Made by a program: the position numbers and the translations under genes. A model generated the notes under the pieces. It was not told where the DNA came from and did not search any database. It worked only from the letters and a program-made list of their open reading frames with translations. Below are positions 802 to 27,109 of a stretch of DNA of 64,000 nt, piece after piece; within the stretch, counting starts at the first letter, position 1, and each line of letters starts with the position of its first letter. The DNA is taken from positions 736,982-800,981 of the forward strand of contig NZ_WRXM01000002.1 in the NCBI RefSeq assembly GCF_010119205.1. The letters run 5' to 3'. The DNA comes from Haloarcula limicola (lineage in GTDB: Archaea > Halobacteriota > Halobacteria > Halobacteriales > Haloarculaceae).

Positions 802-880
802 CCATAATAACGGTATCTGGCGGGCTTGTACCAGTATGGAGAGTCACGAGACGACAGACAGGGGGAGACGACACGCATGA
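802..880 (+). promoter_or_regulatory. TATA element with a 14-codon leader ORF ahead of the DUF354 gene
   Basis: A TATA-like stretch (CATAATAA, 803-810) lies about 27 nt upstream of an ATG at 836. That is the spacing expected for a leaderless haloarchaeal transcript. The ATG at 836 opens a frame of 14 codons (MESHETTDRGRRHA) whose TGA overlaps the ATG of the glycosyltransferase-like gene at 877 (ATGA). Ribosomes may load on the leader and re-initiate at 877. The leader ORF is in a different frame from the main gene. Expression is inferred only. Confidence 0.4.
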
Positions 881-1959
881 CCGTCATGTTCACCATCCAG
901 CACCCGGCGCACGTCCACTTCTTCAAACACGCCATCTGGGCGCTGGAAGACGAGGGGCGCGAAGTCCACGTCGTCGCGCGGGACAACGAAGTCGCCGTCG
1001 ACTTGCTCGACAGCTACGAGATCGACCACACCGTCCTGGCGAACGAGTCCGGGTCGCTGGCCCAACTCGCCGTCGTCCAGACCGCCTACGAACTGCGGTC
1101 GATCCGCTACGCGCTCGAGGTCGACCCGGACGTCGTCGCGGGCGTCGGCGGCGTCACGGCCGCCCACACCGCCGCGGTGGTCGGCGCGGAGAGCGTCGTC
1201 TTCACCGACACCGAACACGCGACGCTCATCAACAGGATCACCCACCCGGTCGCCGACTACGTGGCGACGCCGACCTGCTACACGGAGGACGCGGGCGACA
1301 ATCAAGTCACGTACCCCTCGTACCACGAACTCGCCTACCTCCACCCCGACCGCTTCGAACCCGACACGTCGGCCTTCGAGGACCTGCGCGTCGACCCCGA
1401 CGACAAGTTCGTCGTCGTCCGCCTCAGCGCGTGGGACTCCTCGCACGACGTGGGCGCGTCGGGCGTGCGGGACATCCACGACGCCGTCGACCGGCTCGAA
1501 GCGACGGGCGCGACGGTCCTCATCACCTCCGAGGTACCGCTGCCCGACGACCTCGAACGCTGTCGGACCCTCGTCCCGCCCGAGGAGATCCACCAGTTAC
1601 TCGCGCACGCCGACCTGTTCATCGGCGAGGGCGCGACGATGGCCTCCGAGTGCGCCGTCCTCGGGACGCCCGCGGTGTACATGAACTCGCTGACGATGGG
1701 CTACACCGACGAACTCGAAGCGGAGTACGACCTGCTCTGGAACTTCAACGAGGACGACGAGCAGGACGCCGCCCTCGAACGCGCCGTCGCCATCCTCGAA
1801 GACGCCGAGTCGGACCGCTGGGAAGCCCGCCGCGAGCGGCTCCTCGACGACAAGCAGGACGCGACGGGCGTCATCCTCCGGATGCTCGGGCTGGCGATGA
1901 ACGACGAGACCCTCGGCTCCGACCAGACCGCGCGCACGAAGGCCGTCGTCGACACATGA
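877..1959 (+). CDS. DUF354-type predicted glycosyltransferase
   Basis: About 360 residues beginning 'MTVMFTIQHPAHVHFFKHAI', the typical N-terminus of DUF354 proteins, which are predicted GT-B-fold glycosyltransferases related to UDP-GlcNAc epimerase/transferase folds. A 'GVGGVTAAHTAAVVG' segment and a C-terminal 'FIGEGATMASECAVLGTPAVY' segment match the nucleotide-sugar binding half. The ATG at 877 is chosen over in-frame TTG 826 because the family N-terminus starts there. The stop overlaps the next start (ATGA at 1956), so both genes are probably one transcript. Likely role: cytoplasmic assembly of a surface glycan. The sugar specificity is unknown. Confidence 0.8.
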   Translation: MTVMFTIQHPAHVHFFKHAIWALEDEGREVHVVARDNEVAVDLLDSYEIDHTVLANESGSLAQLAVVQTAYELRSIRYALEVDPDVVAGVGGVTAAHTAAVVGAESVVFTDTEHATLINRITHPVADYVATPTCYTEDAGDNQVTYPSYHELAYLHPDRFEPDTSAFEDLRVDPDDKFVVVRLSAWDSSHDVGASGVRDIHDAVDRLEATGATVLITSEVPLPDDLERCRTLVPPEEIHQLLAHADLFIGEGATMASECAVLGTPAVYMNSLTMGYTDELEAEYDLLWNFNEDDEQDAALERAVAILEDAESDRWEARRERLLDDKQDATGVILRMLGLAMNDETLGSDQTARTKAVVDT

Positions 1960-2867
1960 GGGTCCTCCAGCTGGTCAACACCCCACGGTCGTTCTTCGAC
2001 AAGCAGGTGGAAGCGCTGGAACGGCGGGGGATCGAGTGTACGACCGTCACCGTCCCCGGGACCCACGACGCCGACCAGTCCCGGTCGGTGACCGACTACC
2101 TCCGGTACTACCCGGACGTGCTGGACCACTCGCTCGACGGCTACGACGTGATCCACGCCCACTACGGGTTGATGGGGCCGTTCGCGCTGGCCCAGCCCGA
2201 CCGACCTGTCGTCCTCACGCTGTGGGGCTCCGACCTCATGGACGAGGAGAGCTTCGTCCCGCGGCTCAGCCGGCTCTCGGCGCGCCTGAGCGACGAGGTG
2301 ATCCTGCCCTCGACGACGATGAGCGCGTATCTCGACACGCCCCACCAGATACTCCCGTGGGGCGTCGACACCGAGCAGTTCCGGCCGGTCGACCGTTCCG
2401 AGGCCCGCGAACGCCTCGGGTGGCCACGGGACGAGACGACCGTCCTGTTCCCCTATCCGCCGGAGCGCGACGTGAAGAACCACCCGCTCGCGGAGCGCGT
2501 CGTCTCCCGACTCGACGGCGTGAGCTTGCGGACGATGTCGGGCGTCCCCTACGAAGACGTTCCGTACTACATGAACGCCAGCGACGCGATGCTCGTCACT
2601 TCGAAGCGCGAGAGCGGCCCGATGGTCGTCAAGGAGGCCGCCGCCTGTAACGTCCCCGTGGTCTCGACAGACGTGGGCTTCGTCTCGGACGTCTTAGACG
2701 GCGTGGAGAACAGTTACGTCCGCGACGGGGAGACCGAACTCGCGGACGCGCTCTCCGACGTACTCGACGCGGACGAGCGCAGTTCCGGCCGCTCGAGCAT
2801 CGTCGGACTGGATCAGATGGGCGAGGACCTCGAAGCCATCTACCGAGGTGCTATCGACGGGCGATAG
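1956..2867 (+). CDS. Family GT4-like glycosyltransferase
   Basis: 303 residues with a GT-B layout. The N-terminal Rossmann half contains 'DVIHAHYGLMGPFALAQ' and 'VLTLWGSDL', typical of GT4 enzymes. The C-terminal half carries the donor-binding E-x7-E motif (ESGPMVVKE) followed by 'NVPVVSTDVGFVSDVL'. The start codon overlaps the stop of the DUF354 gene by four bases (ATGA), indicating translational coupling. It is somewhat shorter than most GT4 proteins (350-400). It probably adds one sugar to a lipid-linked or surface glycan. Donor and acceptor cannot be told from sequence. Confidence 0.85.
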   Translation: MRVLQLVNTPRSFFDKQVEALERRGIECTTVTVPGTHDADQSRSVTDYLRYYPDVLDHSLDGYDVIHAHYGLMGPFALAQPDRPVVLTLWGSDLMDEESFVPRLSRLSARLSDEVILPSTTMSAYLDTPHQILPWGVDTEQFRPVDRSEARERLGWPRDETTVLFPYPPERDVKNHPLAERVVSRLDGVSLRTMSGVPYEDVPYYMNASDAMLVTSKRESGPMVVKEAAACNVPVVSTDVGFVSDVLDGVENSYVRDGETELADALSDVLDADERSSGRSSIVGLDQMGEDLEAIYRGAIDGR

Positions 2868-2898: not shown

Positions 2899-4008
2899 CT
2901 ACGCGCGCTTGAGTTCGACCGAGAAGACCGACCCCTTCGGCTGGTTATCGGAGATGTCGATGTCGCCGTCGTAGCGGTCCACCAGTCGGCGCACGAGGAA
3001 GAGGCCGATACCGAGGCCGCTGCCGTCCAAGTCAGACGATTCGCTGGAGAACAGTTCGCGGCGCTGTCTGGGCGAGATACCGGGACCGTTGTCGGCGAAG
3101 TCGACCGTGACGGTGTCGTCCTCGACGGTGACGGTCACGTCCACCCGCGGCGTCTGCTCGTCGTTGTAGATGATGGCGTTGCTGAGTATGTTGCCGAAGA
3201 CGGACCCCAGCAGGCTGTCGCCCCACACCTCGACGTCCTCGTAGTCGCCGCCGATCTCGATCTCCGCCGGTTCGTAGAGGTCGAGGGCCTTCTCGACTTC
3301 GCCCTCGAGGATGCGGGCGAGGGAGACGGCACCGAGGCGGGAGTCGTCCGGGTCCTCGTCGGCCGCCTCGACGGCGTCGCCGATGGTCCGGGTGAGCTGC
3401 AGGACGTGGTTGCTCGCGGTGATGATCTCGGTCAGCGTGTCCGCGTAGCGCTCGTCGACCTCGTTCCGGAGCTGTCGGGCGCGGGCGACGACGAGGCTGA
3501 TGTCGTTTCGCACGTCGTGGCGGGTCAGCTGGTTCATGATGGCGAGCTGCTCGGTGCGCTCGCGCAGCGCCTGGCCGGTCTCGTGGCGCTGGATCGCGTA
3601 GCGGATGGTGCGTTCGAGCAAGTCCCGGTTCACGTCGTCCTTGACGAGGTAGTCCTGTGCCCCGGCCCGGATGGCCGCCGCGCCGACGCTGGTGTCGTCG
3701 ACGCCGGTCAGGACGACGATGGGGACGTCCCGAGAGGCCTCCAACGCACCCTCCAGCGTCTCCATCCCGCCGCTGTCGTCGATGTGGAGGTCGAGGAGAA
3801 CGACGTCGAGCGTCTCGGCGCTGGATTCGAGCGTCCGGGTGGTCCCCGCGAGGGAGGTCTCGCGGTGAATCCGCACCTCGTCGCCGGCGTCCGAGAGCCC
3901 CGGGAACCGCTCCTCCTGAACGGGGATCGGCTCGCGGAACAGTTCCTCGACGTAGCGGGCGTCGGCGTCGTTGTCCTCGACGAGGAGGACGTCTACGGTC
4001 CCGGTCAT
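2899..4008 (-). CDS. Receiver-histidine kinase hybrid (REC then kinase core)
   Basis: 369 residues. A receiver domain (about 1-140) has the acidic pair at 11-12, phosphoacceptor Asp73 and a 'LVKDD' lysine. A linker leads to a dimerisation helix with 'TRHDVRND' (His164), the haloarchaeal H-box form. The HATPase follows with 'GNILSNAIIYND' and 'DNGPGISPRQRREL', ending 'SGLGIGLFLVRRLVD'. There are no membrane segments, so it is a soluble phosphorelay kinase. It is the last gene of a three-gene operon: its ATG overlaps the stop of the response regulator upstream (TCAT at 4005-4008). It probably exchanges phosphate with the two receiver proteins of the operon. Confidence 0.9.
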   Translation of the reverse strand: MTGTVDVLLVEDNDADARYVEELFREPIPVQEERFPGLSDAGDEVRIHRETSLAGTTRTLESSAETLDVVLLDLHIDDSGGMETLEGALEASRDVPIVVLTGVDDTSVGAAAIRAGAQDYLVKDDVNRDLLERTIRYAIQRHETGQALRERTEQLAIMNQLTRHDVRNDISLVVARARQLRNEVDERYADTLTEIITASNHVLQLTRTIGDAVEAADEDPDDSRLGAVSLARILEGEVEKALDLYEPAEIEIGGDYEDVEVWGDSLLGSVFGNILSNAIIYNDEQTPRVDVTVTVEDDTVTVDFADNGPGISPRQRRELFSSESSDLDGSGLGIGLFLVRRLVDRYDGDIDISDNQPKGSVFSVELKRA

Positions 4009-4466
4009 CGCACTCGTCGCTCGCGCGGTAGCGTCGCCGTCGAGAGCCAGAACGACTGGAGGTGGTCGATGACGGTGATGTACTCGGAGACCGAGTCCGG
4101 CTTCGTGACGTAGGCGTTCGCGTGGTTGTCGTACATCCGTTCGACGTCTTTCGACTCGTCGGAGGTCGTCAGGATGACGACGGGGATGCGGCGAAGCGAG
4201 TCGTCGGACTTGATCTCCCGGAGGATGTCGCCGCCGTTTCGGCCCGGGAGGTTGATGTCGAGGAGGACGAGATGCGGGGCGACGTCGTCGTCCCGTTGAC
4301 CCTCCCCGCGGAGGGTCGCCAGCGCGTCGCTCCCGTTGTGGACGACGGTCAGCGAGACGCGTGCGCCGATCTCGGAGAACGCTTCCTTCGCCAGGCGGGC
4401 GTCCGCCGGGTTGTCCTCGACGAGTAACACCCGCGGTGAGCGCGAGTCGGTTGCGGTAGCAGTCAT
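4005..4466 (-). CDS. Single-domain response regulator (Rcp1/CheY-like)
   Basis: 153 residues that are essentially one receiver domain: 'VLLVEDNPADARLAKEAF', phosphoacceptor Asp70 in 'HLVLLDINLPG', 'VVILTTSDESKDV' and the conserved lysine in 'AYVTKPDS'. The 'ILREIKSDDSLRRIPV' loop and C-terminal 'YITVIDHLQSFW' helix match the Rcp1-like receivers common in archaeal phosphorelays. It has no output domain. It overlaps both neighbours by four bases (ATGA), so the three genes should be translated coupled. It probably shuttles phosphate between the hybrid kinase and the HxlR-REC-HalX protein. Confidence 0.9.
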   Translation of the reverse strand: MTATATDSRSPRVLLVEDNPADARLAKEAFSEIGARVSLTVVHNGSDALATLRGEGQRDDDVAPHLVLLDINLPGRNGGDILREIKSDDSLRRIPVVILTTSDESKDVERMYDNHANAYVTKPDSVSEYITVIDHLQSFWLSTATLPRERRVR

Positions 4467-5350
4467 AGGTTGAGTCGTTCCGTGATAGCCGTCGTCTCGT
4501 CGGCTTCGCTCGGCTCGTCGTCGAGGGCCGCCTCGACGGTTTCGAGCCGTTCGAGCAGACGCTGGTACTCGTCGCTCGCCTCCCGTTCGGCGGCGGTCAG
4601 CCGCGCGTCGAGCAGCGCTCGGCGAGCCAGCAGCGAGTAGTGTTCGGTGATATCCTCGTCGGCGGTGGTCCGTTCGAGCACCTCCGCGACGACCTCCCTG
4701 ACTTCGCTCTCCTCGCCGGGTTTCAGCAGATAGGCGTCGAACTCCATGTCGGCGACGTCGACGTCCGGTTCGACGGCCGTGAGCAACACCACTCCCGCGT
4801 CGAGGTCCGCCTCGCGGATCTTCTCCAAGAGGTCGTCGCCGGAGAGGCCCGGCATCCGCCGGTCGAGGAGGACGACGTCGATCTCGTCAGAGAGCGCGGT
4901 GATGGCGTCCTTGCCGTTGAACGCCGTCTCGACGTCGTACTCCTCGGCGAGCCAGCCGGCGTGCATCCGCGCGAGGCGCGGGTCGTCGTCGACGACCAGC
5001 ACGGTGGGCCGCGTCGACTCGCCGAGGTTCCGCTTCCCCCAGTCGGCGAGCGTCTCCATGACCGCCTGTAGCTCCCGGCCGGCGCGGGTGAGGTCGTACT
5101 CGACGCGTTTCGGCGACTCGCTGACGACGTGTCGTTCGATGAGGTCGTTCTCCTGGAGGTCTTCGAGGCTATCCGTCAGCACTTTGCCCGAGATGCCGTC
5201 GAGGCGTTCCTGTAGCTCGTTGAACCGCAGCGGTCCGTCGTCGAGCAGCGATTGGATGATGACCGGATGCCACTTCTTCGAGATGAGCGTCACGGCCTGG
5301 GCGACCCGGTCGTCCGATGGAGTGCTCGGGCTCACGTTTCTCAGTAGCAC
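4463..5350 (-). CDS. HxlR-type wHTH / receiver / HalX fusion regulator
   Basis: 295 residues in three parts. Residues about 12-105 are an HxlR-family winged helix ('ISKKWHPVIIQSLLDDGPLR', 'ISGKVLTDSLEDLQENDLI'). Residues 114-230 are a receiver with Asp163 in 'VVLLDRRMPGLSG' and Lys210 in 'AYLLKPGE'. Residues 232-285 match the helical HalX domain. The GTG start at 5350 is chosen because a TATA-like GATAATAATC lies about 22-25 nt upstream on this strand; GTG 5335 is an alternative. It heads the operon with the receiver and hybrid kinase. HxlR domains normally stand alone, so fusion to a receiver suggests phosphorylation-controlled DNA binding. Confidence 0.85.
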   Translation of the reverse strand: MLLRNVSPSTPSDDRVAQAVTLISKKWHPVIIQSLLDDGPLRFNELQERLDGISGKVLTDSLEDLQENDLIERHVVSESPKRVEYDLTRAGRELQAVMETLADWGKRNLGESTRPTVLVVDDDPRLARMHAGWLAEEYDVETAFNGKDAITALSDEIDVVLLDRRMPGLSGDDLLEKIREADLDAGVVLLTAVEPDVDVADMEFDAYLLKPGEESEVREVVAEVLERTTADEDITEHYSLLARRALLDARLTAAEREASDEYQRLLERLETVEAALDDEPSEADETTAITERLNL

Positions 5351-5505
5351 AATCCAGACGCCCCAAGGTGATTATTATCGTGCCCGTAAATGCCGGGAGC
5401 GACGCCGATGGGGCAGTTTTCTCTGTCGATAAGTGGATACCAACGGTGCGAACGCCGTCGATCGACGCCCTCGCACTGAGTCGCATCGAGAGCGCCTGAG
5501 AACCC

Positions 5506-5547
5506 ACTTACGGACAGGTAAGTACGCTCGCTTACTTATTTGTAAGA
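5506..5547. promoter_or_regulatory. Two operator-like palindromes CTTAC-N6-GTAAG
   Basis: Two inverted repeats with identical half sites and six-base spacers lie at 5507-5511/5518-5522 and 5531-5535/5542-5546. Their centres are 24 bp apart, a little over two helical turns. They sit between the divergent HxlR-fusion gene (starting 5350) and the beta-helix gene (starting 5594), just upstream of an AT-rich promoter-like stretch at 5545-5570. The layout suggests two bound dimers on one DNA face. The HxlR-type regulator next door is the obvious candidate ligand, but that is inference. Confidence 0.55.
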
Positions 5548-5593: not shown

Positions 5594-7006
5594 ATGAGTG
5601 AGCAAGAACCACTACAGACCGGAGATGCGGCCCAGCAGACCGAAGATGCGGCCCAGCGGATCGAAGCAGCGGACCGACAGACCGAAGTAGCGAACCAGCG
5701 GACCGAAGCAGCGAGCGGAGACGTCGACAGCGGTCGACGGACGTTCATGCAGGCGCTCACCATCGGGGCGGCGGGCCTCGGCGTCGCTGCGATGTCGGGC
5801 AACGCGGCGGCCGCAGAGGAGGGCCCGTCGGAGCCGTTCGAAGTCGGCGGCGACGCGCTCAACCTCGGCGGCACGCTGGTCGTCGGCGACGGCGGCTACG
5901 ACACCATCACGCAGGCCTGGGACGCCGCGTCCTCGGGCGACACCATCTACGTCCACTGCTCGTACGACGCCGAAGCGGCCGGCGAGCCGTTCCCGGTCGT
6001 GCTGGACTACGAGGAGAAGGAGGTCATGCTGACCGGCGGCCACCCCTCCGGGTCCGTCATCGACGCCAGCCACTCGAACGAGAACGTCATCGAAGTGCTC
6101 GGGCGCGGGATGAACGACTACCGCAACAACCCCGTGGTCCAGAACCTGAAGATCGTCGGCGGCGACGTCGGCCTGCGCGTCCGCGCGGCCCCCTTCGCCT
6201 CCTTCGAGAACCTCGTCATCTACCGGACCGGTTCACACGGCGTCTCCATCGAGGGATACACCGACCCGGACAGCGGCCGTAACAAAGGCACGTTCGGCGT
6301 CTACTTCCACAATTGTCAGACGTGGGTGTGCGGCGGTGACGGCTTCCGCACCGAGGGAGACGCACTTCCGCACGGGACGACGTTCACCAACTGTAAGGCG
6401 AGTTCGAACGGTGGCATCGGCTTCCGTCTCCGTGGCTACACTAACAAACTCATCGGCGGTGCTGCCCAGCTGAATCACAGCTACGGGATCGAGGCCCGCG
6501 TCGGCAAGGCGAACCTCATCCAAAACTGCTACATCGAGGGCAACAGCCGCGCGAAGAGTTACCCGGTCGAGCTCTACGCGAGCGGCGCAGACGGCCTCAC
6601 CATCAGCAACTGTTACTTCAACGGCATCAATCCCCGGTCGACTTCGCACAACCACGACCACGTCCTCCGGGCGATCAACGTCCACGAGAGCTCGAAGCTC
6701 AGCATCCGCGACTGTACTGTCCGGAACTACGACGAGGGCTTCATCGCGACGTTCAGCTGCCGGGACCCCGACTTCCACGCGGCCTCTCACTACGTGTTGG
6801 ATGCCACTCACGGCCTGTTCGCGACTGACCCGACCGGCCACGGCAATATCCGCCCTCGCTCTGACGGCATGATCCTGCCCTCCGATCTCTCAGACGCCGA
6901 ACCGCTTCACGACTACGACATGGGGTACCACGTCGGCGGCGGCAAGGAGGGACTGGCCTACCACTACGACGGCGAATGGCATCTCATGGAAACCGAGACG
7001 CTCTAG
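5594..7006 (+). CDS. Tat-exported right-handed beta-helix protein
   Basis: 470 residues. The first ~42 form an unusual hydrophilic leader of five seven-residue repeats. A twin-arginine signal follows (SGRRTFMQALTIGAAGLGVA, then an 'AAA' cleavage region near residue 75). The mature part has repeated short strands with Asn ladders ('NPVVQNLKIVGG', 'NLIQNCYIEGNS', 'GLTISNCYFNGI', 'KLSIRDCTVRNY'), typical of pectate-lyase-like parallel beta-helices. It ends in a 'YHYDGEWHLMETETL' tail without an anchor, so it should be released or wall-associated. A polysaccharide-active or binding role is likely, but no catalytic set is evident. Codon and base use resemble its neighbours. Confidence 0.8.
   Translation: MSEQEPLQTGDAAQQTEDAAQRIEAADRQTEVANQRTEAASGDVDSGRRTFMQALTIGAAGLGVAAMSGNAAAAEEGPSEPFEVGGDALNLGGTLVVGDGGYDTITQAWDAASSGDTIYVHCSYDAEAAGEPFPVVLDYEEKEVMLTGGHPSGSVIDASHSNENVIEVLGRGMNDYRNNPVVQNLKIVGGDVGLRVRAAPFASFENLVIYRTGSHGVSIEGYTDPDSGRNKGTFGVYFHNCQTWVCGGDGFRTEGDALPHGTTFTNCKASSNGGIGFRLRGYTNKLIGGAAQLNHSYGIEARVGKANLIQNCYIEGNSRAKSYPVELYASGADGLTISNCYFNGINPRSTSHNHDHVLRAINVHESSKLSIRDCTVRNYDEGFIATFSCRDPDFHAASHYVLDATHGLFATDPTGHGNIRPRSDGMILPSDLSDAEPLHDYDMGYHVGGGKEGLAYHYDGEWHLMETETL
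5612..5716 (+). repeat. Five tandem 21-bp repeats encoding heptads
   Basis: Within the 5' end of the beta-helix gene, five 21-bp units encode LQTGDAA, QQTEDAA, QRIEAAD, RQTEVAN and QRTEAAS. The common DNA core is CAGaCCGaAGnnGCG with point differences. The heptad spacing would allow a short amphipathic or coiled helix placed before the Tat twin arginine, an unusual position because Tat n-regions are normally short. Confidence 0.8.
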
Positions 7007-7124: not shown

Positions 7125-8855
7125 TTACGAGACTTCTATCGGGAACTCCCGGTCGGTCGTCCGACCGCGCTGTCGGCGCTCTTCACCCGGTTCGGGTTCC
7201 GAATCGGCAGCGTCCCAATCGATGGTGATCTTTCCGTCGGTCGGGGTGTCGATGTTCGCAGGCGGATCGAACGACATCTTATCGAGGGCCTCCAGCCCGA
7301 AGAAGGAGAACGCCCGCTGGCGGCCCGTGAACAGCGACGCGAACTGCTTGCGCGACATCGCACCGGGCCAGCCCCGCGGGTCCATGTAATACCGTCCGCG
7401 TGCGTACAGCGGTCGGACGACGTCGAACAGCGACGAGTGATAGAGCCACTGGTGGGCGCGCCGGATCGGGCTCGACATCTCGGTCTCCTGCGCCTGGCCG
7501 AGTTCGACCCCGGTGTGTTCGGTGTAGAGGTTCTCGACGTAGCGTCGGTACAGCGCCTTGTCCTCGCGGTACTCCAGAGGGATGTCCTGCCAGACCGACG
7601 CGAACTCCTGGTCCCACAGCGGCATCCACCACTCGTGGCCCCAGAACTCGTAGACATCCACGTCTCGCGTGATGAACTTGGCCTGGCGCTCCTGCCAGTA
7701 CCACTCTGCGATCGCCTTCGCAGCGTCGTCGGGATCGTCGTACTCGTCGGTTCCGACCTCGCGGAGGATGCGGTCGTCCAGCATCGAGTCGAAGCGCTCG
7801 TCGTCCCAGTCCCAGAGCTTGTAGTTGACGTTCGTGAGGAATTCGACGACCTTCTCCCGCCCGACGCGGTCAGTCTCCAAGATGTTGTTCGGGAAGTGTT
7901 CACTCGGCGAGACGGCCGTGTGACCCGGCATAAACACGGCGTCGTCGGGGATGCGTCCCTGTTTTTTCAGCTCCCAGACCGAGGGCCACGCGAGGTTGGC
8001 CCAACCGGGGAGCGCGCCGAAGTTGTACGAGAAGTCGTAGTAGTCTTCACGACGGCGGGAGTTGAACCAGTCGTCCCACTTGTCGTTCGTGTACTCGACG
8101 TACTCCCACGGGATGCCGACCTCGTTCGCGATCTTCTTGCTCACCTTGTGTTCCGAGTCCCACGACTTGCCGTAGCTGAAGGCCATGACGTCGTCGTACC
8201 CCAGATAATCGAGCATCAGGACGATGAGCCGCGAGTCGTAGCCGCCGCTGAGAGGGACGACGATGGTCCGGCCGTCCGCGAAGTCGATAGCTCGCTCGAA
8301 GGCCTCTACGAGCACGTCGTCTAACTGCTCTAGGAACTCCGCTTCACTACCGGAGGCGGATCCGGACGGCTGATAGCGATAGTACCGCTCCCGAGTCGCG
8401 GTATCGCGTCCGTCACCGACGGCGAGCAACTCGCCCGCCTGTAACTGCCGGAGGTCGGGATAGAGCGTCTCGCCGCCGGTGACGTAGCCGGTCACCTGAA
8501 ACTCGGCTTCGGCCAGCGGGTCCCGCGGCCGCTCACCTAACTGCTCTCGAATCCAGTGTGCGTCGTCGCCGAGATAGAGACTGCCGTCGGCCCATCCGTA
8601 GTAAAGCGGCATGGACTGGTCGCGGTCCACTGCAGCGTACACCTCGTCGGACGTTCGATGGACGACGGCGTAATACCCATTCAGATCGTCGAGGGCCGAG
8701 CGGAACTCCGCCTTCGACTCGGTCGAGCCGAAGCGGGCGGCGAGATCCGCCGCGTCGTGGCGTTCGTCATCGACGAAGGCAGTTCCCCGGGCGTATGTCC
8801 CGTCGTGGACCACCCAGGGATTAGCTTCGTCGAGATGAATTGAGACATCTACCAT
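7125..8855 (-). CDS. Asparagine-synthase-like protein with inactive glutaminase half
   Basis: 576 residues with the two-part asparagine synthetase B plan. The N-terminal region (about 1-160) resembles the Ntn glutaminase but starts 'MVDVSIHL' with no Cys2, so glutamine hydrolysis is not expected. The C-terminal synthase domain has the pyrophosphate loop 'PLSGGYDSR' (203-209) and continues through 'FSYGKSWDSEHKVSKKIANE'. Relatives in surface-polysaccharide loci are thought to amidate sugar uronic acids. Here it neighbours beta-helix and amino-sugar genes and has a second copy at 21374. It probably activates a carboxyl group with ATP and uses ammonia or another nucleophile. The substrate is unknown. 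Its promoter side has TATA-like GGTATATACC and CTATAAGTA on the minus strand. Confidence 0.75.
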   Translation of the reverse strand: MVDVSIHLDEANPWVVHDGTYARGTAFVDDERHDAADLAARFGSTESKAEFRSALDDLNGYYAVVHRTSDEVYAAVDRDQSMPLYYGWADGSLYLGDDAHWIREQLGERPRDPLAEAEFQVTGYVTGGETLYPDLRQLQAGELLAVGDGRDTATRERYYRYQPSGSASGSEAEFLEQLDDVLVEAFERAIDFADGRTIVVPLSGGYDSRLIVLMLDYLGYDDVMAFSYGKSWDSEHKVSKKIANEVGIPWEYVEYTNDKWDDWFNSRRREDYYDFSYNFGALPGWANLAWPSVWELKKQGRIPDDAVFMPGHTAVSPSEHFPNNILETDRVGREKVVEFLTNVNYKLWDWDDERFDSMLDDRILREVGTDEYDDPDDAAKAIAEWYWQERQAKFITRDVDVYEFWGHEWWMPLWDQEFASVWQDIPLEYREDKALYRRYVENLYTEHTGVELGQAQETEMSSPIRRAHQWLYHSSLFDVVRPLYARGRYYMDPRGWPGAMSRKQFASLFTGRQRAFSFFGLEALDKMSFDPPANIDTPTDGKITIDWDAADSEPEPGEERRQRGRTTDREFPIEVS

Positions 8856-10678: not shown

Positions 10679-11042
10679 CGGTTGGCCGGAAGCACCCGAG
10701 CCTGATAAGCGGTCAGGATCGTTCGAGTTCAACGGTTCTGAACCCGATCTGATAGCCGCCGCCTAAGGAAAACCGAGCCGAACGGGGGGTGATTTAGCCA
10801 CCCATTCAGCGACGACTGGCCGGGGGCTAAACGGCGGGAGCGCGCTTACCTCGCCCATAATAAAGCCCTGTCTGGTGCACTAGAAGTCTGAAGACGGCGG
10901 AGCGGCCGCCCAAATCGACCATGCATCCGAGTGAGCAAGGGACTGTCGCGCCGTGCGACGAACGACCGACCGAATCGCAGACCCCGTCCGCGCCTCGTTC
11001 GCGGGCGGCCGAACGATACCAGCCGAGACGGGTGAGCGACGG
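10679..11042. other. Intergenic region with a TATA-like element and a 42-codon leader ORF
   Basis: A TATA-like stretch (CATAATAAA, about 10855-10863) lies well upstream of the DegT gene. Downstream, ATG 10921 opens a 42-codon frame (MHPSEQGTVAPC...) ending in a TAG at 11047-11049 that overlaps the start of the aminotransferase gene (11043) in another frame. It may be a coupled leader or a chance ORF. The rest shows nothing recognisable apart from the promoter side of the DUF1616 gene. Confidence 0.3.
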
Positions 11043-12134
11043 ATGGTAGAGATCCCCATCGCGTCGCCGACGATCGGCGAGCCCGAGCGCGACCGCGTCC
11101 TCGATGTCCTCGACTCGGGCTACCTCGCCGCCGGCGACGTCGTCGAGGAGTTCGAGGCCGAGTTCGCCGACTACTGCGAGGCCGACCACGGCGTCGCGGC
11201 CACCAACGGGACCGCCGCGCTCCACGCCGCGCTCGAAGCGGTCGGCGTCTCCGAGGGCGCGAACGTGATCACGACGCCGTTCTCGTTCGTCGCCACCGCC
11301 AACACCATCCAGTTCGCGGGCGGGACGCCGGTCTTCGCCGACATCGACCCCGAGACGTACAACCTCGACCCCGAGAGCGTCGAGGAGAAGATCCGCGAGA
11401 GCGACGACCCGGTCGACGCCATCGTGGCGGTCCACCTCTACGGCCTGCCCGCCGAGATGGACGCGCTGCGGGACATCGCCGACGACTACGACGTGGCGCT
11501 CGTCGAGGACGCCTGTCAGGCACACGGCGCGCGCTACGACGGCGAGCCCGTCGGCGCGATCGGCGACGTCGGCTGTTTCAGCTTCTACCCGACGAAGAAC
11601 ATGACCTCGGGCGAGGGCGGGATGATAACGACCGACCGCCAGGACGTCGCCGACGCGGCCGAACGCTTCATCAACCACGGCCGCGAGGTCTCGGGCTACG
11701 ACCACGTCGAGGTCGGCCACAACTTCCGGATGACCAACATGGAGGCCGCCGTCGGCCTCGCCCAGCTCGAACGGCTCCCGGAGTTCAACCGCAAGCGCCG
11801 CGAGAACGCCCGGAAGCTGACCGAGCGACTCTCCGACACGCAGGTGGAGACGCCCACGGAACCCGAGAACCGCCGGCACGTCTACCACCAGTACACGGTC
11901 CGGTGTCCGGACCGCGAGGGGCTGAAAGAGACGCTCTCGGACCACGGCGTCGGCAGCGCGGTGTACTACCCGACGCCCATCCACGAGCTCGGAGCCTACG
12001 AGGAGTACAGCGCCTCGGCACCGGTCTCGGAGCGGGCCGCCGACGAAGCGCTCTCGCTTCCGGTCCACCCGGAGGTCGACGACGACGACATCGAGCAGAT
12101 AACCGCTGCCATCACTGAAACGCCGCTACTATGA
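11043..12134 (+). CDS. DegT/DnrJ/EryC1/StrS sugar aminotransferase (WbpE-like)
   Basis: 363 residues. It has 'VAATNGTAALHAALEAVGV' near residue 51, 'VEDACQAHGA' and the PLP-binding lysine in 'FYPTKNMTSGEGGM' (Lys185), all diagnostic of the DegT family of aldolase-like sugar aminotransferases. The start at 11043 gives the normal family N-terminus ('MVEIPIASPTIGEPER'). It overlaps the Gfo/Idh gene by four bases. With that oxidoreductase, the acyltransferase at 15205 and the dehydrogenase at 15786 it makes the gene set for UDP-2,3-diacetamido-2,3-dideoxy uronic acid. In that route it would transaminate the 3-keto sugar with glutamate. Exact substrate inferred. Confidence 0.9.
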   Translation: MVEIPIASPTIGEPERDRVLDVLDSGYLAAGDVVEEFEAEFADYCEADHGVAATNGTAALHAALEAVGVSEGANVITTPFSFVATANTIQFAGGTPVFADIDPETYNLDPESVEEKIRESDDPVDAIVAVHLYGLPAEMDALRDIADDYDVALVEDACQAHGARYDGEPVGAIGDVGCFSFYPTKNMTSGEGGMITTDRQDVADAAERFINHGREVSGYDHVEVGHNFRMTNMEAAVGLAQLERLPEFNRKRRENARKLTERLSDTQVETPTEPENRRHVYHQYTVRCPDREGLKETLSDHGVGSAVYYPTPIHELGAYEEYSASAPVSERAADEALSLPVHPEVDDDDIEQITAAITETPLL

Positions 12135-13120
12135 CAACGACTACACCCACCCCCGTCGGCGTGATCGGCGTCGGAAGCATGGGCCGCAACCACGCCCGCG
12201 TCTACCGCGAGCTTCCGACCACCGAACTCGTCGGCGTCTACGACGCGGACGAGGAGAACGCGCGCGCCGTCGCCGAGGAGTACGACACGCGCTATCGCTC
12301 GCTGGACGACCTGCTGTCGGCCGCCGAGGCCGTCTCCATCGCCGTCCCGACCCAGTACCACTACGACACCGCCCACGAGTGCATCGACGCGGGCGTCGAC
12401 GTCCTCGTCGAGAAGCCGTTCGTCTCCGACGCCGAGGAGGGCGAGCGCCTCATCGAGTTCGCCGACGAGCGCGACGTCAACATCCAGGTCGGCCACGTCG
12501 AGCGGTTCAACCCGGCGGTCAGCACCCTGCTGGACCTCGTCGAGGACCTCGACGTCATCGCCGTTGACGCCCACCGCCTCGGCCCGCCGCTCGACCGCGA
12601 GATCGACGAGTCGGCCGTGATGGACCTGATGATCCACGACATCGACATCCTGCTGGCGCTCGTCGACGACGAGGTCGAGTCGGTCGACGCGGTCGGCAAC
12701 CGCAACGCCCGCTACGCGAGCGCGAACCTCGCCTTCGAGTCCGGCGTCGTCGGGCAACTGACCGCCAGCCGCGTCACCCAGGAGAAGGTCCGGAAGCTCA
12801 CCATCTCCGCCGAGACCTGCCGCGTGACCGTCGACTACATCGACCAGACGCTGGAGGTCACCCGCGGCTCGGCCCCCGAGTACATCCGCGAGGACGGCGA
12901 GTTCACCCACCGCCACGAGAGCTTCGTCGAGCAGCTGAGCGTCGAGAACCGCGAGCCGCTGAAACACGAACTCGACGCCTTCGTCGAGTCGGTTCGCACC
13001 GGAGCCGAACCGCCGGTCACCGGCGAAGACGGCCTGCGCGCCCTCGAACTCGTCAAGGAGATCGACGAGCTCTCGAAGGACGCGACCCGCAAGACCCGCA
13101 AGCCCGCCACCACGCAGTAG
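12131..13120 (+). CDS. Gfo/Idh/MocA sugar oxidoreductase (WbpB-like)
   Basis: 329 residues with a Rossmann N-terminus ('GVIGVGSMGRNHARVYREL'), the catalytic 'EKP' motif in 'DVLVEKPFVSD', and 'VGHVERFNPAV', the signature of Gfo/Idh dehydrogenases. The C-terminal alpha/beta domain contains 'MDLMIHDIDILLAL'. Its ATG overlaps the DegT stop, a common pairing for making 3-amino-3-deoxy sugars: the oxidoreductase forms the 3-keto sugar that DegT aminates. In the WbpB/E pair NAD(H) is recycled through 2-oxoglutarate; whether that holds here is inferred. Cytoplasmic. Confidence 0.88.
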   Translation: MTTTTPTPVGVIGVGSMGRNHARVYRELPTTELVGVYDADEENARAVAEEYDTRYRSLDDLLSAAEAVSIAVPTQYHYDTAHECIDAGVDVLVEKPFVSDAEEGERLIEFADERDVNIQVGHVERFNPAVSTLLDLVEDLDVIAVDAHRLGPPLDREIDESAVMDLMIHDIDILLALVDDEVESVDAVGNRNARYASANLAFESGVVGQLTASRVTQEKVRKLTISAETCRVTVDYIDQTLEVTRGSAPEYIREDGEFTHRHESFVEQLSVENREPLKHELDAFVESVRTGAEPPVTGEDGLRALELVKEIDELSKDATRKTRKPATTQ

Positions 13121-15204: not shown

Positions 15205-15789
15205 ATGGCTGCGACAGACCTGGGCCGCGACTGTGACATCGACGAGGGCGCGACGGTCGGCTACCGTCACAGCGAGGACGCCGACCCGACCGTCGTCGGC
15301 AACGACGCCCGCATCCGCTCGGGGACGACGATCTACACCGACGTCGAGATCGGCGAGAACCTCATCACCGGGCACGACGTCCTCGTGCGCGAGAACACGA
15401 CCATCGGCGACGACGTCGTCGTCGGGACCGACACCGTCATCGACGGCGAGACGACGATCGGGTCCGACGTCAGCCTCCAGACGGGCGTCTACGTACCGCA
15501 GAACACGACCATCGGTGACAACGTCTTCGTCGGACCGAAGGCCGTGCTGACGAACGACCAGTATCCCATCAGACAGAAGTCCGAACTCGTCGGCCCGACC
15601 ATCGAGGACGGCGCCTCCATCGCGGCGAACGCGACGATTCTCCCCGGCGTCACCGTCGGCGAGGACGCCTTCGTGGCCGCCGGAGCCATCGTCACCGACG
15701 ACGTCCCGGCGGAGACGCTCGCCATCGGCGCACCGGCGGAAGAGAAACCCCTTCCCGAGCAGCTCAGCGGCGGAAACCAGATAGCATGA
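15205..15789 (+). CDS. Hexapeptide-repeat acyltransferase (WbpD-like)
   Basis: 194 residues dominated by left-handed beta-helix hexapeptides ('[13 protein letters not shown]', '[13 protein letters not shown]', '[13 protein letters not shown]', '[13 protein letters not shown]'). The catalytic loop region contains 'TNDQYPIR', as in N-acetyltransferases acting on UDP-3-amino sugars (WbpD/WlbB type). The C-terminal '[21 protein letters not shown]' is the usual trimer edge. It lies one base after the 38-codon membrane peptide and overlaps the dehydrogenase by four bases. Predicted to acetylate the 3-amino group made by the DegT enzyme using acetyl-CoA. Confidence 0.88.
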
Positions 15790-17117
15790 GCGAATCAGTC
15801 TCACACAGAACAGGCGAACAGAGCGCCCGTCCCGAGGGCGAACAGATATGCGTCGTCGGACTCGGCTACGTCGGCATGCCGCTCGCGCTGGCGTTCGACG
15901 ACGAGGGGTTCGAGGTCACCGGCTTCGACATCGACCCCGAACTCGTCGAGACGCTCAGCGACGGCAACGACCCGACCGGCGAGGCCGGTCACGACCGGGT
16001 CGCCGAGAGCGACGTCTCCTTCACCGCACAGCCCGACAACATCGTGCGCGCTGACTACGTCATCCTCACGGTGCCGACGCCCGTCGACAACACGCAGAAC
16101 CCGAACTTGGACTTCGTGAAGGGCGCGGCCCGCACCGTCGGCGAACACATCTCCGAGGACACGACCGTCATCCTCGAATCGACGGTCTACCCCGGCGTGA
16201 CCGAGTCCGAACTCGCCCCCATCATCGAGGAGGAGTCCGGACTGACCGCCGGCGAGGAGTTCAACCTCGGCTACTCGCCCGAGCGCCTCTCGCCCGGCGA
16301 CGGGGGCAAGACCTTAGAGGAGGTCGTGAAGATCGTCAGCGGCGACACCGACGAGACGCTCGAGGACGTGGCCACGCTCTACGAGACGGTCGTCGACGCG
16401 GGCGTCTACCGCGCGCCGAGCATCCAGACCGCCGAGGCGGCGAAGGTGATCGAGAACGTCCAGCGCGACATCAACATCGCGCTGATGAACGAACTCGCCA
16501 TCATCTGTGACCACATGGACGTCGACACCCACGAGGTGTTAGACGCCGCCGGGACGAAGTGGAACTTCCACGACTACCGGCCCGGCCTCGTCGGCGGCCA
16601 CTGCATCCCGGTGGACCCGCTGTACCTCGCTCACGGCTCCGAGCGCGCGGGCTACACGCCGAGTCTCATCCTGCAGGGCCGCGAGGTCAACGAGTACATG
16701 CCGAAACACGCCGCCGAGCTCACGATGCGCGGGCTCAACGAGGCCGGGAAGGTCCTCAAGGACTCCTCGGTGCTCGTCCTCGGGCTCTCCTATAAGCCGA
16801 ACGTCGGCGACATCCGCACCTCCGAGGTGGACGAGGTCATCACCGAACTGGAGACCTACGGCATCGACGTCGAGGGGTACGACCCCCACGCCCAGGACGA
16901 CGCGATGGCCGAGCACTTCGGGATCCCCATTCAGGACACGCCGGACTTCGAGGGCTTCGACGCCGTCTTCCTGGCGACGCCCCACGACGAGTTCGACCGC
17001 TTCGACCTCTCGAAGGTCGCGGGCGCGCTCAACGACGATCCGGTGCTCATCGACGTGATGGCGGACGTAGACGAGGCCGACGCGACCGAGGCCGGCTTCA
17101 TCTACGACCACCTCTAA
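15786..17117 (+). CDS. UDP-sugar 6-dehydrogenase (UDP-GlcNAc/ManNAc dehydrogenase, WbpA/WecC-like)
   Basis: 443 residues of the UDP-glucose/GDP-mannose dehydrogenase superfamily. It has the NAD site '[17 protein letters not shown]' (about 21-37), 'VPTPVD', 'LESTVYPG', '[10 protein letters not shown]', the central '[20 protein letters not shown]' helix, and the catalytic Cys273 in '[13 protein letters not shown]'. 'CIPVDP' is typical of the N-acetyl-hexosaminuronate-forming branch rather than UDP-glucose dehydrogenases. It performs the two-step NAD oxidation of C6 to a carboxylate, giving the uronic acid that the Gfo/Idh and DegT enzymes modify. The start overlaps the acyltransferase stop. Confidence 0.9.
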
Positions 17118-26542: not shown

Positions 26543-27109
26543 TCACTTCCGGCCGTTCTGAAACTCGGCCCGCAGGTCCTGATCGTCGAGCGCACCGGTC
26601 GTATCCGACAGCTCGGCGCGAAGCCGCAGCAGTTCACGCTGGAGCGTGTCGTACTCCTCGCTGTTGTCGAGTTCGGCGTTGCTCTTCTTCGATTCCAGCG
26701 CCGCCTTCTTCGACGCCAGCGAGAGGAACTCCTGCATCTGGTTGTCGTACTCCGAGCGGCGGAGACACGTCTCGACGGCGTCCCGGAGCTCCTCCGGTTC
26801 GGAGACCGGCTTCTCGAGATAGGCGTCGAATCCCAGTTCCAGAATGTCGAAGTCGGGTTCGACCGCAGAGACCAACACGACGCGACAGTCGAGGCCGCGT
26901 TCGTTGAGGACCTCGAGCACTTCCTCGCCGGAGATGTCCGGCATTCGTCTGTCCAGCAGAACGATGTCGACTTCTTCGTCGAGTTTGTCGAGCGCTTCCG
27001 TACCGCTGTAGGCCGTCTTGACGGCGTACTCCTCGGAGATCCACTGAGCGTAGCCGTCCGTAATCGGCTGCTCGTCGTCGACAATCAGGACAGTCGCTTG
27101 CTCCGGCAT
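26543..27109 (-). CDS. Response regulator with HalX domain
   Basis: 188 residues. The receiver (1-120) has 'VLIVDDEQPITDGYAQW', phosphoacceptor Asp53 in 'VDIVLLDRRMPDISG', and 'AYLEKPVSEPEEL'. The C-terminal ~60 residues ('LSLASKKAALESKKSNAELD', 'EEYDTLQRELLRLRAEL') are the helical HalX domain found after receivers in haloarchaea. It closely resembles the REC-HalX part of the fusion at 4463 but lacks the HxlR domain. HalX output function is not established. Neighbouring kinase 24660 is a candidate phosphate donor. Confidence 0.92.
   Translation of the reverse strand: MPEQATVLIVDDEQPITDGYAQWISEEYAVKTAYSGTEALDKLDEEVDIVLLDRRMPDISGEEVLEVLNERGLDCRVVLVSAVEPDFDILELGFDAYLEKPVSEPEELRDAVETCLRRSEYDNQMQEFLSLASKKAALESKKSNAELDNSEEYDTLQRELLRLRAELSDTTGALDDQDLRAEFQNGRK

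Follow-up and report, generated by a model that had tools for sequence, protein, structure and literature searches.

An HxlR-receiver-HalX regulator and its receiver-kinase partner among polysaccharide genes of Haloarcula limicola

Few archaeal response regulators carry a recognised DNA-binding domain, and the HalX domain has no documented function in the available text of the survey by Galperin et al. (2018; PMC5847659). A table in the same paper gives 'HalX, REC-HalX, HxlR-REC-HalX' for Halobacteria. The fusion protein described here has the last of these domain orders and comes from the same taxon, and so adds a member to an architecture already on record. In the portion of that paper available, the architecture appears in the table only, with no operon, partner kinase, target, cysteine loss or exopolysaccharide given for HxlR-REC-HalX proteins. 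REC-HalX response regulators share the receiver and HalX with the fusion, but have no HxlR domain ahead of them. The archaeal regulators LtrR and FilR1, which combine an HTH or winged HTH domain with a receiver, have an N-terminal DNA-binding domain with the receiver on its C-terminal side, as in the fusion; neither HxlR nor HalX is named for them in the text available, and FilR1 has DUF1724 (PMC5847659). The nearest solved structure is that of YodB, an HxlR/DUF24 regulator (5hs7, E 1.3e-21), with which the fusion has a winged-helix DNA-binding core in common. It differs from HxlR/DUF24 regulators in lacking the N-terminal cysteines of its stand-alone haloarchaeal relatives and in the addition of the receiver and HalX.

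Literature searches on HxlR or HalX with two-component terms returned titles and abstract openings that describe no such operon, and Galperin et al. (2018; PMC5847659) was the sole paper found for HxlR with these terms. The operon is also not described in the titles and abstract openings found for DUF24/HxlR operators, haloarchaeal exopolysaccharide regulators, SipW/TasA in haloarchaea, or TafE. The fixed kinase partner, the polysaccharide setting, the cysteine swap and the palindromes reported below were not found in print.

Operon structure and the fusion protein

The window (the whole stretch of 64,000 nucleotides analysed, from Haloarcula limicola) contains on its minus strand, from 5335 to 2899, an operon encoding three proteins:

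4463..5335, minus strand, HxlR-receiver-HalX transcription regulator of 290 aa with a GTG start (Pfam, start comparison, dN/dS 0.082)
4005..4466, minus strand, lone receiver of 153 aa, overlapping the fusion gene by ATGA (Pfam, alignment; optional in relatives)
2899..4008, minus strand, receiver-histidine kinase of 369 aa, overlapping the lone receiver by ATGA (Pfam, invariant residues in 16/16)

Neighbouring genes share an ATGA, the start codon of one running into the stop codon of the other, at 4463-4466 (fusion and lone receiver) and at 4005-4008 (lone receiver and kinase), in agreement with the preliminary description of this DNA. That description started the fusion gene at an alternative in-frame GTG at 5350, which would give a 295-aa frame; since the nearest relative, Haloarcula amylovorans L001, has CTG at this position, the GTG at 5335 is probably the start, and Asp163 of the 295-aa frame corresponds to Asp158 of the likely 290-aa protein. 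Comparison of the window with L001 gave dN/dS values of 0.082 for the fusion, 0.112 for the lone receiver and 0.113 for the kinase. This indicates purifying selection on all three, which therefore look like working genes.

Three Pfam domains have been detected in the fusion protein (295-aa numbering): HxlR at residues 22-111 (93.1 bits against a cut-off of 20.8, E 1e-26), Response_reg at 117-221 (59.7 bits against 30.2, E 4e-16) and HalX at 227-287 (42.5 bits against 23.2, E 9e-11), in this order within one frame, as in HxlR-REC-HalX response regulators. The preliminary description had joined HxlR to a receiver and HalX, and had named the lack of an HxlR profile match as the outcome that would overturn it; it is borne out on both counts, and the score above the curated cut-off rules out a chance assignment of the N-terminal region. 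The residues it had named are also correct (Asp163 in the 295-aa frame, Asp70 of the lone receiver and His164 of the kinase). The fusion has the acidic pair D116/D117, D158, T186 and K205 expected of a response regulator. In an alignment of 30 fusions, from which L006, L096, L102, L103 and L104 were omitted, Asp158 is present in 29 and Lys205 in all, while K51, V52 and L53 of the winged-helix core and R77-V78-x-Y80 of the wing are invariant in 30/30. An AlphaFold model of the fusion, built with seven sequences, is poor (mean pLDDT 61.3, pTM 0.44) and uninformative on HalX.

A profile of the HxlR-receiver core matched 84 times, in 70 of the 391 haloarchaeal genomes searched and across 32 of 86 genera, with no internal stops; some of these matches may be without HalX, as is L105, where HxlR and the receiver are found without a Pfam HalX match. 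Together with the low dN/dS, these matches rule out an assembly or frame artefact. In a metagenome-assembled genome, the fusion of L006 (5355-6229) occupies two overlapping frames, likely through a frameshift. The earlier view that HxlR is here wired to phosphorylation stands in so far as the domain shares a protein with a receiver whose phosphorylation residues are intact; the architecture itself is not distinctive, being listed by Galperin et al. (2018; PMC5847659) and found in 70/391 genomes. HalX has nine matches in the window genome, and the window contains a separate HalX response regulator at 26543-27109 (HalX match G000:C2:763542-763742).

In the HxlR family, an N-terminal cysteine is typical of the redox subgroup and presumably serves as the redox sensor. 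The fusions were compared with 37 control loci (L008-L044), the stand-alone HxlR proteins of haloarchaea that come nearest in peptide pattern, which are probably largely one orthologous group and therefore not a random sample; L045 and L046, bacterial and receiver-only matches, were dropped. At least one cysteine occurs in the N-terminal region tested in 37/37 of these controls and at least two in 35/37, with a WCxGxxWC pattern before a KKWHP motif in most of those printed with two or more. In contrast, no cysteine precedes this motif in any of the 30 aligned fusions, nine of which have a single cysteine elsewhere in the HxlR domain. The window protein has the winged helix of HxlR (DUF24) regulators and lacks their N-terminal sensing cysteine, a difference from redox-type HxlR proteins that is sharper than the preliminary description had claimed. 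Judging from these sequences, the receiver apparently took over from a thiol input.

The receiver-kinase and the lone receiver

Pfam detects Response_reg (41.7 bits) and HATPase_c (72.1 bits) in the window kinase; no HisKA model was reached, and an H-box, RHDVRND, is present in its sequence. The protein thus combines the N-terminal receiver, H-box histidine, N-box, G boxes and HATPase_c of REC-HisK kinases, and its His164, Asp73, E11/D12, Lys123 and N-box residues are invariant in 16/16 aligned sequences. No PAS, GAF or other recognised sensor domain was found in it by Pfam.

Neighbourhoods were collected for 30 class-wide matches and L001-L007, leaving out L077-L079, which repeat L007, L002 and L005; more than half of the 84 class-wide matches, mostly more divergent ones, lie outside these counts. 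A full receiver-kinase occurs within 8 kb of the fusion in 33/35 fusion loci and in 0/37 control loci, where most neighbourhoods reach about 6 kb on each side against up to 8 kb for the fusions. The two fusion loci without one are L106 and L003, the latter with only a partial matching reading frame. The receiver-kinase is a fixed partner of the fusion, and the lone receiver is optional. Although the lone receiver of the window matches Response_reg at 65.7 bits, among the 15 loci of the close clade (the window, L001-L007 and L080-L086) one of good similarity is present in six (window, L001, L002, L006, L080, L086), one without the phospho-acceptor Asp in two (L003, L007), and none was found in the other seven (L004, L005, L081-L085). 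The idea of three receivers per operon as a conserved design has consequently been abandoned. The two degenerate copies, from Halogranum (L003 6884-7303, L007 6871-7299), have lost both Asp and Lys and kept an NAxV...FW signature, as pseudo-receivers.

Longer operons occur in relatives. Seven of the 10 loci in the clade L089-L098 have, after the fusion, a large kinase (1467-1971 aa), then a receiver and a receiver-kinase, and the large kinases of this clade match the kinase half of the REC-kinase. The one scanned by Pfam (L090 8771-13942) has many PAS and GAF domains in a row, together with HisKA and HATPase_c; further large kinases lie inside related operons at L092 1717-7632 and L093 1671-7586, these three being 1720-1970 aa long. 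Taking into account these long operons with a PAS/GAF kinase, the window operon looks like a short form without a sensor of its own.

Polysaccharide genes and promoter palindromes

The operon lies amid genes for surface sugars, in a setting that the preliminary description had missed along with the palindromes described below. The neighbouring genes are:

877..1959, plus strand, DUF354 protein of the polysaccharide cluster (family match)
1869..2867, plus strand, GT4-type glycosyltransferase, part of the reading frame 1431-2867, convergent with the operon
5594..7006, plus strand, secreted right-handed beta-helix protein with a twin-arginine signal, divergent from the operon, candidate target (Pfam Beta_helix; in 2/30 same-genus genomes)
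7125..8855, minus strand, asparagine-synthase-like amidotransferase (weak match, below the model cut-off)
10953..12134, plus strand, DegT-family sugar aminotransferase (family match)
12131..13120, plus strand, Gfo/Idh oxidoreductase (nearest NCBIfam model UDP-GlcNAc 3-dehydrogenase, below its cut-off)
15205..15789, plus strand, hexapeptide-repeat acyltransferase (family match)
15786..17117, plus strand, nucleotide-sugar dehydrogenase (TIGR03026, above cut-off)

This set of sugar genes is reminiscent of the wbpA-B-D-E pathway, which makes diacetamido uronic acids. Linkage to polysaccharide genes is conserved in the close clade, where they surround the fusion in 15/15 loci against 1/37 controls (one phosphodiesterase). 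The query proteins were taken from the window, L002, L004 and L080, and without these four loci the linkage is found in 11/11, each with at least three families. All 15 have a GT4 gene close to the operon, and many of these loci also have a polysaccharide deacetylase, DUF1616, an aminotransferase and an oxidoreductase. In the distant clade, L087 has two polysaccharide families, and none was found around the fusions in the 19 loci L088-L106. There, a SipW-like signal peptidase and a secreted fibre-like protein adjoin the fusion in 6/10 loci of L089-L098 and in L105, against 0/37 controls; examples are at L089 9917-11663, L090 5423-7172 and L105 10538-12279. One distant-clade fibre-like protein weakly resembles the TafE fimbrial adapter, below the model cut-off. 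In a Halalkalicoccus-like group, a gene for a Tat-signal protein lies upstream of the fusion (L002 920-2053, L004 4604-5884, L080 8585-9709); these proteins are polysaccharide-deacetylase-like where scanned (L002, L004) and have a common C-terminal tail, for example RIIAFFRSLFS. Since the switch and its own kinase lie amid surface-sugar genes, the regulator probably controls the outer coat of the cell.

The intergenic region that separates the operon from the divergent beta-helix gene contains a pair of palindromes and a putative promoter element:

5507..5522, no strand assigned, operator-like palindrome CTTACGGACAGGTAAG (motif search; one of 4 genome sites)
5531..5546, no strand assigned, operator-like palindrome CTTACTTATTTGTAAG, adjoining an A+T-rich stretch, the putative TATA region of the divergent gene (conserved in L001)
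5370..5380, minus strand, putative operon TATA element GATAATAATC (conserved in L001; assigned by eye)

The motif CTTACN6GTAAG has four sites in the 3.9 Mb genome, two of them here, 24 bp apart. When the 258-bp region was resampled 2000 times with a first-order model, no resampling had as many as two sites of the looser form CTTAN8-9TAAG. Elsewhere in the window genome, one of the two remaining sites separates a divergent gene pair (L108 1902-1917) and the other falls inside a predicted gene whose frame is doubtful. In a set of 30 genomes from the same genus, the close pair is confined to the window genome and that of L001 (G398); these two are also the only ones with the beta-helix gene and the only ones with a window-type fusion, and a third, G154, has a distant-clade fusion. 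As fusion, beta-helix gene and palindromes form one block in only two close genomes, they are indistinguishable there. The sequence GGCTTAGGTGNCTGATAA, with few variable positions besides N and with diverging flanks, is common, in another lineage, to the fusion promoters of L003, L005 and L007, and its perfect form GCTTAN9TAAGC occurs once in the genome of L007 (G379), at the fusion promoter. By their sequences, these are two related but different palindromes. In most other members, promoter searches found neither palindrome ahead of the fusion gene, and none of the CTTAC type in the promoter regions of fusion genes outside the window, L001, L003 and L007; L086 has two CTTA-Nx-TAAG sites elsewhere. 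With one mismatch allowed, no third CTTACN6GTAAG site was found within the 64 kb window, so that the motif does not support direct control of the other polysaccharide genes. The palindromes adjoin the putative beta-helix TATA region and lie some 130-170 bp from the operon TATA, a spacing that would suit a role at the beta-helix promoter more than a simple block of the operon promoter. No sigma-70 promoter or terminator was detected in a scan, and archaea would not be expected to have promoters of that type. The palindromes suggest that the regulator binds the promoters of the locus, and they could belong to another regulator.

A proposed surface-polysaccharide phosphorelay

Four findings together argue specifically for a phosphorelay that serves surface polysaccharide: an input apparently switched from cysteines to a receiver, a kinase partner that is nearly always present, polysaccharide genes nearby, and palindromes that are rare in the genome. 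It is considered reasonably likely that the operon encodes a cytoplasmic two-component phosphorelay dedicated to this locus. Alongside the observed domains, intact catalytic residues, linkage to kinase and cluster, cysteine loss and palindrome rarity stands the scheme that we infer, with each of its phosphotransfer steps, its DNA target, direction of control and signal. As the kinase has no recognised sensor domain, the signal is proposed to enter through its own receiver (Asp73). The kinase would then autophosphorylate on His164 and pass the phosphate to Asp158 of the HxlR-receiver-HalX protein, the lone receiver probably also being phosphorylated, as a side store or sink. Receiver phosphorylation, rather than cysteine oxidation, would alter the dimer geometry of the N-terminal winged helix, with HalX as a helical dimerisation or coupling segment. 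The regulator would bind the CTTAC-N6-GTAAG palindromes of the intergenic region and regulate both the operon that encodes it and the divergent beta-helix gene, with part of the polysaccharide cluster controlled indirectly by this route.

Other readings differ from this scheme in the donor, the reach or the output of the regulator. It is unlikely, though worth serious attention, that the in-operon receiver-kinase is mainly a phosphatase or relay hub and that the phosphate really comes from an orphan kinase with several PAS domains encoded elsewhere, of the kind found in relatives with longer operons. The 1467-1971 aa kinase between fusion and receiver in 7/10 loci of L089-L098, the PAS, GAF, HisKA and HATPase domains of the L090 kinase and the window kinase's want of a sensor domain are consistent with such a role, whereas no multi-PAS kinase was seen in close-clade operons and the REC-kinase retains all catalytic residues. 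Somewhat less probable still is a regulator that is only a local autoregulator or a switch of the divergent beta-helix gene, its polysaccharide setting hitchhiking in an island of surface genes. Both window palindromes lie within the same intergenic region, and fusion and beta-helix gene co-occur in 2/30 same-genus genomes, as such a local role would have it; the polysaccharide linkage, however, holds in 15/15 loci, across other families, gene orders and divergent neighbours.

The roles of the two flanking domains might also be exchanged, HalX being the DNA- or partner-binding output and HxlR a dimerisation module only. An HTH-like structure is suggested for HalX, with no DNA binding documented, in the available text of Galperin et al. 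(PMC5847659), but the winged-helix core is highly conserved (K51/V52/L53 and R77-V78-x-Y80 invariant in 30/30) and HalX is weaker, not being reached by Pfam in L105, so that this exchange appears very improbable.

Under the phosphorelay reading, the operon would form a complete set of cytoplasmic kinase, DNA-binding response regulator, candidate operator and candidate target, in which a domain swap appears to have replaced cysteine sensing by phosphorylation. Should the linkage prove sound, it would identify regulators of surface polysaccharide in haloarchaea. A broader proposal, put forward tentatively, is that HxlR-receiver proteins constitute a haloarchaeal extracellular-matrix phosphorelay family, derived from a thiol-sensing HxlR repressor that lost its cysteines and came under a receiver. 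The window branch would run polysaccharide clusters, and a sister branch with giant PAS/GAF kinases would run clusters of SipW-like signal-peptidase and secreted fibre-like genes. If true, archaea, in which DNA-binding response regulators are uncommon, would have a phosphorelay route to the biofilm matrix.
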